From the NCBI RefSeq assembly GCF_003946445.1, contig NZ_RHOF01000023.1, forward strand, positions 1 to 58,678: a DNA stretch of 58,678 nt, written 5' to 3'. Below the pieces are notes generated by a model, which saw only the letters and a program-made list of their open reading frames with translations, did not search any database and was not told where the DNA came from. The translations under genes were made by a program, and so were the position numbers. Source of the stretch: Loigolactobacillus jiayinensis. GTDB lineage: Bacteria > Bacillota > Bacilli > Lactobacillales > Lactobacillaceae. Below, in pieces: positions 5,276-47,404 of the stretch; within the stretch, counting starts at the first letter, position 1, and each line of letters begins with the position of its first letter.

Positions 5276-5444
5276 GGTGACGATTTCCTCCTACTACACA
5301 ATTAAGGTAATTTGTTAGCCTAGCTGCTAATAAATCAGGTTGTTGGCGGTGATATCTATTTTTTAGCACGATTAAAGGCGCATAGGGATAACAGGCGCAG
5401 CTTTTGCCGTAAGAAATATGATTTCAAAAATAGATCTATGTAAA

Positions 5445-19635: not shown

Positions 19636-20199
19636 ATGTCATTAGTTGGAAAAAAGATTGGCGAATTTAACGCACATGCATATCGGCAGGGAGAATTTGT
19701 TGACGTTTCAGATAAAGATCTATTAGGTCATTGGAGTATTGTCATGTTCTATCCCGCGGATTTTTCATTTGTTTGTCCGACTGAATTAGAAGATTTACAA
19801 GATAATTATGCTCAATTACAGTCATTGGGTGTTGAAGTTTATTCTGTTTCTGCAGATACACACTTTGTACATAAAGCGTGGCACGATGATTCTGAAGCTG
19901 TTGGCAAGGTTCAATATACAATGATTGGCGATCCTTCTCAGAAAATTATTCGGCTATTCGATGTTTTAGACGAAGAACAAGGTCTGGCGCAACGTGGGAC
20001 TTTCATTCTTGATCCAGAAGGTGTTGTTCAAACGATGGAAGTCAACGCTGATGGCATCGGCCGTAACGCTAGTGAATACTTAGACCGCATCAAGGCTGGC
20101 CAATACGTCGCTGCGCATCCTGGCGAAGTTTGTCCTGCTAAGTGGAAGGAAGACGAAGCAACCCTCACGCCTGGTTTGGATTTAGTTGGCAAAATCTAA
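19636..20199 (+). CDS. ahpC: Alkyl hydroperoxide reductase subunit C (2-Cys peroxiredoxin)
   Basis: A 187-residue typical 2-Cys peroxiredoxin. The peroxidatic Cys47 is in DFSFVCPTE and the resolving Cys166 in [10 protein letters not shown]. It reduces H2O2 and organic peroxides in the cytosol and is recycled by AhpF, encoded downstream. AGGAGG precedes the ATG. The 313 bp before ahpF hold a structured repeat rather than a simple operon gap. Confidence 0.96.
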
Positions 20200-20202
20200 A
20201 TA

Positions 20203-20418
20203 GTGCTAAAAGGCGCTTAGATTTGAGCACTAGCCTACTACTCCGCAATCAGAGAAGTTTATTAGCAAAGAACGCTAATAAACATTGATGTTACGGGCGT
20301 TGGCCATTCTTGTGGCAAAAAGCTTGCCGCAAGAAACATGGCAGTAAGGCAATAAGTAACGCGTAGTGATGCGTTTGACCTTACGTAGCTAGGCGCAATA
20401 ATCTGCCTTTTTTTGCAC
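20203..20418 (+). repeat. Structured 216-bp element, copy A
   Basis: First copy of an element shared with 28039-28254. The ends pair (AAAAGGC at 20208-20214 with GCCTTTT at 20405-20411; AGATT with AATCT). Inside are a perfect 10-bp hairpin, GTTTATTAGC (20257-20266) with GCTAATAAAC (20274-20283), and a long hairpin at 20303-20342 with GCCAT/ATGGC and CTTGTGGCAA/TTGCCGCAAG including one G-T pair. A third hairpin at 20344-20384 has loop GTAGTG, and conserved TAGC...CTAC and GTAGCTA segments can pair. It may be a structured RNA or a miniature mobile element. It fills most of the ahpC-ahpF gap. Confidence 0.75.
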
Positions 20419-20512
20419 GTTTCAACCAACTCAGTCTAAAGAACAATATGAAAAGGCCGTTAACACGGTCTTTTTTCAAACAGATTCAAGCTTTTAAGGA
20501 GGGTCTACGTTT

Positions 20513-27399: not shown

Positions 27400-28026
27400 A
27401 TGCAAACATTAATCATTAATGCACAGCCAGATTTATCTAGCGCCGATCACTTTTCAACCAAATTACAGGAGCTATTCTTAGCTAAATTTACAGCCCAATT
27501 TCCGGACGACAAGCCGACCATTTTAAATCTGTATGACACCCAGATTCCACGGATCGAAGCTGGCCAGTTATTAGATGTTTGGAACCAAGCGGATTTAGCG
27601 ACTGATACGGCCGCATTAGCGCAGGTCTCGGCTGAGTTGTTGGCACAGTTTAAGGCCCACCACCGAATTGTGATCGTATCACCACTGCACAATTTCAATG
27701 TGACCTCGCGGATGAAAGATTATTTGGATAATATTTTGATTGCGCGCGAAACCTTTAAATATACCGCTGTCGGCTCAGTGGGGCTGATGACCGATGATTA
27801 TAAAGTGCTGTTGTTGCAGGCTAGCGGTTCGATCTACACCAACAATGATCGTTACACGTCACTAGATATTTCCCGCTTTTATTTGCAGAAAATGTTTGAA
27901 GAGATTATGGGCTTTGACCAATTCTATATTGCGCGCGCTCAAGGAACCGCCACATTAGCGGCCAATCAAGTTCTAGCGGCTGCAGCTGCGGAGCTAGACC
28001 AAGCATTCGCGCAATTTTACGTATAA
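27400..28026 (+). CDS. azoR: FMN-dependent NADH-azoreductase (AzoR family)
   Basis: A 208-residue flavodoxin-fold quinone/azo reductase. The N-terminal INAQPDLSSADHFS loop and the later SPLHNFNVTSRMKDYLDNIL are the family's FMN-binding elements (the latter corresponds to P-x-Y/H-NF-x(2)-P/T). It reduces quinones, azo dyes or nitro compounds with NADH; the natural substrate is unclear. AGGGAGC precedes the ATG. The divergent WYL regulator next door probably controls it, but is frameshifted. Confidence 0.85.
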   Translation: MQTLIINAQPDLSSADHFSTKLQELFLAKFTAQFPDDKPTILNLYDTQIPRIEAGQLLDVWNQADLATDTAALAQVSAELLAQFKAHHRIVIVSPLHNFNVTSRMKDYLDNILIARETFKYTAVGSVGLMTDDYKVLLLQASGSIYTNNDRYTSLDISRFYLQKMFEEIMGFDQFYIARAQGTATLAANQVLAAAAAELDQAFAQFYV

Positions 28027-28038
28027 ACAAAAAGGAGA

Positions 28039-28254
28039 GTGTAACATAAGACGATTAGCTCCTGAGCATTAGCCTTCTACTCCGCAATCGTAGATATATT
28101 AGCAAAGTTCGCTAATATATCCTGGATGCTACGGACGATGACCATTCTTGTGGCAAAAACCTTGCCGCAAGAAACATGGCAGATTGACGAATAATACACG
28201 TAGTGGATTATTCGGCGATCGTAGCTAAGCGGAGGGAGCTGTCTTATGTTACAC
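28039..28254 (+). repeat. Structured 216-bp element, copy B
   Basis: Second full copy, exactly the same length as 20203-20418. The ends pair perfectly (GTGTAACATAAGAC with GTCTTATGTTACAC, plus AGCTCC with GGAGCT), though their sequence differs from copy A. The 10-bp hairpin is ATATATTAGC (28094-28103) with GCTAATATAT (28111-28120): two base pairs differ from copy A and both stay paired. The long hairpin near 28140-28180 is nearly identical between copies. The third hairpin (28182-28220) has GATTG/CGATC and CGAATAAT/ATTATTCG with the shared CGTAGTG loop. It lies just after the azoreductase stop. Confidence 0.75.
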
Positions 28255-28262
28255 GTTTAAGC

Positions 28263-28326
28263 TATAATGTTCGGCAATAAAAAAGAGGCTGCGACATAAT
28301 ATTACTTATGTCGCAGCCTCTTTTTA
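28263..28326. terminator. Repeated bidirectional terminator
   Basis: GAGGCTGCGACATAA pairs perfectly with TTATGTCGCAGCCTC, with A and T runs outside. The preceding TATAATGTTCGGCAATAAAA is found again, inverted, next to the terminator at 37561-37625. GAGGCTG-GACATAA hairpins are a widespread terminator repeat in lactobacilli and relatives. Confidence 0.85.
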
Positions 28327-35925: not shown

Positions 35926-35962
35926 AAAAATGTGCATTTATAAAATCAGACAGCGGTCTGGA

Positions 35963-35996
35963 CTGGTTCGGAAACTTCCCAGGATAAAAAACCAAG
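35963..35996 (+). ncRNA. preQ1-I riboswitch (class I, putative)
   Basis: A compact H-type pseudoknot can be drawn. P1 is CTGG (35963-35966) with CCAG (35979-35982). The loop begins TTC as in the conserved GGUUC. After P1 comes the A-rich tail GATAAAAAA (35983-35991), then CC (35992-35993), which can pair with loop GG (35970-35971) as P2. This corresponds to the UAG/CUA pairing of the B. subtilis aptamer. SD GGAGG (36007-36011) follows, which fits translational control. The downstream pair of genes suits a queuosine-precursor regulon. Confidence 0.72.
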
Positions 35997-36018
35997 CATC
36001 TCAAATGGAGGTCGGAGA

Positions 36019-47222: not shown

Positions 47223-47267
47223 AGTGTCTTGTTCAATTGAAGATTTTAAAATAAATTTAGCTGAAAC

Positions 47268-47379
47268 GTGTTTAAAAAGGCAGATTATTACATATAGCTA
47301 CGCTTAGTCAACGATACATTTCATATATCTTATGCCTAAGCTAGCCTATACTTCATAATCTGAGCGCCTTTTTAAACAC
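47268..47379 (-). repeat. Short inverted relative of the structured element, copy C
   Basis: A perfect 14-bp terminal stem GTGTTTAAAAAGGC / GCCTTTTTAAACAC, then GATTAT / ATAATC. Read on the minus strand its ends (AGTG... and ...CACGTTTCAGC) match copies A and B, and the block ending GGCAGATTATT with TAGCTACG nearby matches copy A reverse complement. The middle is much shorter and lacks the long hairpin. Its place between leuC and leuD makes it an insertion within an operon. Confidence 0.65.
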
Positions 47380-47404
47380 TCTTTAAAGAAAGGCGGCATT
47401 TAAC

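Follow-up and report, generated by a model that had tools for sequence, protein, structure and literature searches.

A composite folded repeat, often near gene ends, in Loigolactobacillus jiayinensis and its relatives across Lactobacillales

Related repeats and the elements of the window

The nearest precedents of the element reported here, an outer hairpin termed O which in some copies carries a second module termed I, are BOX, bcr1-bcr3 and perhaps Efa-1. BOX of Streptococcus pneumoniae is, like O, small, modular, multicopy and folded, and its inner module can be absent or repeated with the outer fold undisturbed, as in O (PMC3049150). The boxA-boxB-boxC logic resembles that of O and I when compared by description, whereas the sequence and fold of the two families are unlike by eye and O has no Rfam match. 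Terminal inverted repeats and target duplications are reported for BOX, which is nearly confined to pneumococcus and its near relatives according to the portion of that source consulted (PMC3049150); of the 40 Lactobacillaceae genera sampled, in contrast, 20 contain O, and no duplication was seen.

The bcr1-bcr3 repeats of Bacillus cereus are MITE-like and often lie in untranslated regions or operon gaps, and co-transcribed bcr3 accompanies a longer mRNA half-life (PMC3446304). They can be likened to O by description as MITE-like folded intergenic repeats, but they are recorded in the B. cereus group, and neither a stop-codon position nor a linked terminator was found described in the accessible part of that paper (PMC3446304). 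Efa-1 of Enterococcus faecalis (163 bp, 65 copies, intergenic, two adjacent hairpins) resembles O plus its terminator in size and layout, a comparison by description only, and is possibly an enterococcal relative of O; the same paper, in its accessible part, reports no such family for L. johnsonii (PMC2267715). ERIC, SPRITE and REP are also folded intergenic repeats, some of them terminator-like, as far as the consulted parts of the sources go (PMC3049150, PMC2267715; for REP, PMC3733652). SPRITE, unlike O, is a simple 18-bp duplex with a U-tract (PMC3049150), and REPs have GTAG or CGTC at one end, whereas O has GTAG only internally, by eye. Among the literature matches listed, from a search with most subscription journals outside its coverage, no such family is described in lactobacilli.

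The window analysed here is the whole 58,678-nucleotide stretch of L. jiayinensis contig NZ_RHOF01000023.1. Its features, scored with a covariance model of O (R1) and a mostly sequence-based model of module I (R2), are as follows.

5293..5422, + strand: weak relative of module I (R2, 35.3 bits, E 6e-6)
20201..20422, + strand: copy A, O (5' foot TAGTGC.., 3' end CACGTTT) interrupted by module I; R1 matches the 3' half (33.9 bits)
20240..20342, + strand: module I of copy A, two hairpins (R2, 118.8 bits; the R2 alignment includes copy A)
20451..20476, + strand: short hairpin with T-run between copy A and an ahpF-like ORF, by eye
28037..28258, + strand: copy B, O with module I (R1, 32.7 bits), starting 10 nt past the stop of ORF 27400-28026
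28079..28180, + strand: module I of copy B (R2, 106.5 bits; the R2 alignment includes copy B)
28259..28279, + strand: linker behind copy B (AAGCTATAATGTTCGGCAATA..), resembling linkers of other genera
28280..28325, + strand: terminator-like perfect 20-bp hairpin behind copy B
47264..47381, - strand: solo O without module I (R1, 97 bits), between leuC-like and leuD-like ORFs

Copy A starts 1-3 nt past the stop of an ahpC-like ORF (19636-20199), and a hairpin similar to that at 20451..20476 stands at the same place in two relatives without O, by eye. The solo copy is antisense to both the leuC-like and the leuD-like ORF and lies 23 nt ahead of the leuD-like start. In a terminator consensus scan, copy A contains predicted terminator-like sites and copy B has no hit; the hairpin at 28280..28325 was left uncalled because its T-run lies within the repeat. 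The sole Rfam match of the window is a PreQ1 riboswitch at 35957-36001 (+), with 39.2 bits against a gathering score of 39.

Architecture and covariation of the outer hairpin

The preliminary description took copies A and B (20203-20418 and 28039-28254) for a 216-bp element of equal length with internal hairpins, shared blocks and terminal stems differing in sequence but still paired. Inspection of both sites bore this out: both are 216 nt long at these positions, and the internal hairpins, the common blocks and the paired, dissimilar terminal stems are all present. The two pair swaps claimed for the 10-bp hairpin are right by eye (GTTTATTAGC/GCTAATAAAC versus ATATATTAGC/GCTAATATAT). Both copies fold more stably than all of 200 shuffles each (z = -5.9 for A and -8.9 for B). 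The corrected ends, about 20201-20422 for A and 28037-28258 for B, lie slightly beyond those coordinates, and both copies finish with CACGTTT.

The unit is a composite, as separate parts of a copy A query were matched separately by blastn in its own genome and in relatives. Both copies consist of a 117-nt outer hairpin O (GAGTG...CACGTTT) and a two-hairpin module I of about 103 nt (103 nt in A, 102 nt in B) placed in an internal loop of O, after CCTA in A and after CCTT in B. O, which also occurs alone, is mostly 116-119 nt long and runs from GAGTG through a foot of 14 bp, a bulge of 4 nt in the 5' arm and a stem of 7 bp to an internal loop, a further stem, a second internal loop and a variable tip, with CACGTTT at its end. 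Module I is found elsewhere alone or in head-to-tail arrays with a unit of about 95-106 bp. On one contig of Loigolactobacillus backii (NZ_RHNQ01000026.1), the sole record from the pattern scan, it sits in a different stem of O and is flanked by an apparent TCT repeat, by eye. RNAalifold returned only four pairs for module I, probably because two hairpin types were aligned together.

Further nesting was observed at a few loci. At L043, L054 and L055 another insert (GGAGCACAGTTATAAAG..) lies within the second hairpin of I, which makes a threefold nesting of repeats. At five loci of the own genome (L003, L007, L010, L022 and L028) portions of O and I are replaced or broken up by a module running from CGACTTGGACTTGCCG.. 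to ..GAGCGACAGTG. The inner hairpin of O is apparently present again in the stretch behind O at L117, L145 and L156, by eye.

Selection on the folded form, as first proposed from the two copies, holds in outline, for covariation is massive across 118 distinct copies. Among 16 minimal O copies, 26 of 42 pairs are changed on both sides and 94.5% of cells are paired, as against at most 46.1% when the partners are slid by 1-3 columns. In the 118-copy alignment, which was fitted to the model and hence leans toward it, 38 of 41 pairs are changed on both sides, with 94.5% of cells paired, slid partners reaching at most 45.5% and none of 500 shuffles matching any measure. O does possess terminal inverted repeats in the form of its imperfect 14-bp foot, in which 95.0% of the cells of these 118 copies are paired. 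The bulge pattern C-G..N-[AT]G is found in 82 of the 115 Lactobacillaceae copies; beyond this family 26 of 29 copies have it, mostly as GTTT.

In several genera O is followed by a linker of about 25 nt and then by a terminator-like hairpin, and in Latilactobacillus the spreading unit is O plus linker plus terminator, about 190 bp. Its limits are displayed by two non-allelic copies in one genome (G146): their 96.3% identity covers 190 columns, begins one base ahead of GAGTG and stops at the T-run.

Distribution, gene ends and turnover

A covariance-model search of relatives, which the preliminary description had proposed together with an Rfam search, revealed many O copies beyond A and B. The own genome holds 52 R1 matches to O at E<=0.01, a few of which are reverse-strand echoes or fragments, and blastn with copy A gave 39 matches there on many contigs. 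The same query matched 9 of 60 genomes of relatives, including all seven further members of the genus, one of them through no more than 24 matching bases. With R1, O was detected in 183 of 397 Lactobacillaceae genomes, in the 20 genera already mentioned, and in 58 of 395 genomes (25 of 81 genera) of a sample of the order, 28 of these 58 lying outside Lactobacillaceae with weaker scores. Thirteen of these 28 genomes were re-examined and gave 29 copies, from 29 of 30 loci (L209, at a contig edge, being excluded); most have the same length, foot and bulge, many also have the linker and terminator, and a few are nearly perfect hairpins lacking clear loops. In a sample of the class 3 of 299 genomes had matches: the L. 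jiayinensis genome itself, another member of its order and, from a different part of the class, G903 with tandem pairs. Module I is narrower in distribution, with 18 of 397 Lactobacillaceae genomes and 7 of 40 genera (R2, E<=1e-5).

Copy numbers from the genome surveys are lower bounds, as only a part of the first-look candidates was scored; two sister genomes thus hold at least 136 copies in 1.9 Mb (G121) and at least 114 in 2.1 Mb (G146). These two are probably Latilactobacillus, since they fall in the genus of G091, and one copy of that genome (L143) matches a Latilactobacillus curvatus record without any difference over 131 bp. No match was obtained by blastn of copy A and one O unit against a phage collection. 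Blastn of copy A and five O queries against a plasmid collection gave three records in all (two of L. curvatus, one of Aerococcus tenax), each of which carries housekeeping genes in the part examined. The records CP117684.1 and CP127381.1, each about 592 kb and filed as plasmids, have housekeeping genes aboard (groL and mutS; dnaN and gyrA) and look like parts of chromosomes. The single match in the Aerococcus stretch (L267) is weak, at 26.2 bits, lies where no gene is annotated and is outside the site counts given below.

The position of O relative to genes was analysed in a multi-genus set, in which 96 searched loci gave 130 matches and 115 were kept, the 15 dropped being 7 repeats of listed places, 5 weak or over-long matches and 3 reverse-strand echoes. 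ORFs were called by a simple in-house script, except in the annotated records of the plasmid collection. Six of the 115 non-redundant copies are inside called ORFs, and 71 of the other 109 have an upstream gene on the same strand. The start of O lies between -22 and +20 nt from the upstream stop in 55 of these 71, and within 1 nt of it in 22. In two annotated L. curvatus records, whose stretches were picked for containing a match, eight of nine O sites begin between -1 and +2 nt relative to the stop of an annotated gene (mutS, APC permease, rpiA, C1 peptidase, ABC-F protein, groL, DUF6506 protein and bacteriocin immunity protein), and the ninth is 285 nt off.

Ordinary terminators served as the comparison. 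In stretches of the two Latilactobacillus genomes, 22 of 31 O copies start no more than 1 nt from the stop as compared to 9 of 62 terminators (p = 1e-7), counts in which orthologous sites of the sister genomes are in part included twice. In the multi-genus set, 30 of 50 O copies and 13 of 32 terminators fall within -3 to 5 of the stop (Fisher p = 0.11, rank test p = 0.02). A stop proximity that is special everywhere thus fails in the multi-genus set, and is retained for Latilactobacillus. An enrichment of TAG stops next to O (10/31 versus 68/315, p = 0.18) was rejected.

The 42 O sites in Latilactobacillus spacers include 14 convergent and 2 divergent ones, against a background of 45 and 48 among 302 spacers; the rest are 17 unidirectional sense, 7 antisense and 2 mixed sites. 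Convergent O pairs sharing one terminator-like hairpin were observed. In unidirectional spacers of the multi-genus set, 30 copies are sense and 28 antisense. Of the 346 ORFs in the Latilactobacillus stretches examined, 31 have an O behind the stop, which is not a genome-wide rate, the 20-kb stretches being chosen around known copies and anchors. For the same reason their density (37 copies in 180 kb and 40 in 220 kb) is above the minimum estimated for the whole genomes.

O has spread and has been lost repeatedly, its dispersed copies being present or absent at orthologous sites of relatives. Eighteen of the 20 sites in G121 have at least one full O in G146, with the copy number equal at 7 and different at 11, and of 22 sites in G146, 18 have a full O in G121, 2 have none and 2 are unmappable. 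At two of the four sites where the sister has no full O, one tandem unit is missing next to a degenerate O, and at the other two the inner hairpin has been lost; a clean insertion into a virgin site was not found among these four aligned sites, as all retain debris in the sister. Tandem copies are usually separated by 7 nt. One G146 site has an extra convergent unit absent from G121, and its 98.3% identity to a copy elsewhere in G121, a non-allelic one, points to recent dispersal.

At the locus of copy A, where O and I lie behind ahpC, AhpC was found in 5 of 8 genomes of the genus, the other 3 giving no match. Short O-like debris with no model match is visible by eye in G004 and G002 (AhpC 96% and 95% identical), and none is present there in G001 (90%) or G005 (54%). 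Behind rpoD, O occurs in one of six genomes from the genus to which G091 belongs; a hairpin stands there in the rest, except in G191, which has debris by eye. Flanks of the 115 copies revealed no target-site duplication, since no offset has an excess of matching flanks and the highest z, 4.3, is due to 3 copies; in old copies a duplication may have decayed. A TA duplication was rejected, T being at -2 in just 25 of 115 copies.

Origin and meaning of the repeat

These results are best explained, with a probability of roughly 55%, by O being a non-autonomous, BOX/bcr1-like dispersed repeat that is under selection for its fold and in many cases forms the 3' end of an mRNA. The evidence in its favour is the fold, the covariation, the spread of the family, the unit ends in Latilactobacillus, the preference for stop codons, the dispersal and the turnover. 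The selected form would be one long hairpin with fixed interruptions, dispersed across Lactobacillales, the common form travelling with its linker of about 25 nt and an intrinsic terminator (about 190 bp) and providing the upstream gene with a 3' end that starts at or near its stop codon. O would then be transcribed as an mRNA 3' end, its fold terminating or protecting the message, and a trans-acting enzyme may recognise the fold in RNA or single-stranded DNA and move the element. Copies once placed would multiply or vanish as head-to-tail units and through loss of the inner hairpin; in A and B the second family, I, would have been inserted into the internal loop of O, whose outer stem still closes. 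The role as a 3' end is not valid for all copies, given the 28 antisense copies of the multi-genus set, the 7 antisense and 2 mixed sites of Latilactobacillus and the antisense solo copy before leuD. Also against this explanation are the nearly equal closeness of ordinary terminators to stops in the multi-genus set and the debris retained at all four sister sites that lack a full O.

Many dispersed copies, inverted ends, presence or absence among relatives and the two orientations in unidirectional spacers (30 and 28) would also be expected of a plain MITE with imperfect terminal inverted repeats and a resident DDE transposase, with RNA folding as a by-product of its palindromic ends and the stop positions as a by-product of selection against other insertions. 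This explanation is conceivable and is considered unlikely, because the 115 copies have no target duplication, the covariation reaches beyond the ends over the entire 117-nt hairpin, conserved bulge and loops included, and O starts nearer to stops than terminators do. O might instead be an amplified variant of a bidirectional transcription terminator, its structure kept for termination, which would agree with the A-rich and T-rich foot arms of many copies, with their terminator-like positions and with the stem-loops with 5' A-runs near stop codons that the consulted part of one source describes in low-GC Firmicutes (PMC1590033). Such an origin appears quite improbable, for many copies have a separate terminator beyond the linker, some feet have no T-run (copy B, GTCTTATGTTACAC), and termination has no need for a conserved 4-nt bulge and loops across 117 nt.

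Quasipalindrome correction during replication converts both arms of a hairpin together and is able to mimic compensatory change, so that the double changes could arise without selection on the fold. It should, however, remove bulges and internal loops, which are kept in copies of several families; as the explanation of the double changes it is therefore very doubtful, and it may be a contributor. A still bolder and highly improbable extension would make O a mobile 3' untranslated region, SINE-like, common to several Lactobacillales families, spreading behind stops via an RNA intermediate and serving as a landing platform for I. In that reading the Latilactobacillus unit, whose ends are the stop codon and the predicted end of transcription, equals the 3' tail of the mRNA; the RNA intermediate is pure inference, and the antisense copies count against it.

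The proposal of an undescribed noncoding RNA or a miniature mobile element, made from the two copies in the window, is thus partly supported. It stands in outline, as non-allelic copies are nearly identical and the Rfam search found no family above gathering score at copies A and B or at eight O loci of relatives from several genera. The outcome that it named as refuting, a known MITE with transposase, did not emerge from these comparisons of the repeat itself. That first reading was right on structure; what it missed is that the unit is composite, that the family spans the order, where O stands relative to stop codons and that a linker and terminator travel with O.

For annotation, the consequence is that O is a repeat family matched by no Rfam family. 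The sister genomes, with their unequal copy numbers at the same gene, provide natural tests. If the preferred reading of O as a dispersed, often 3'-terminal repeat is true, a sizeable share of the genes in some food bacteria would have the same folded module behind the stop. This would bear on mRNA ends and stability in the industrially used order Lactobacillales, and on the old question of the role and movement of small bacterial repeats.
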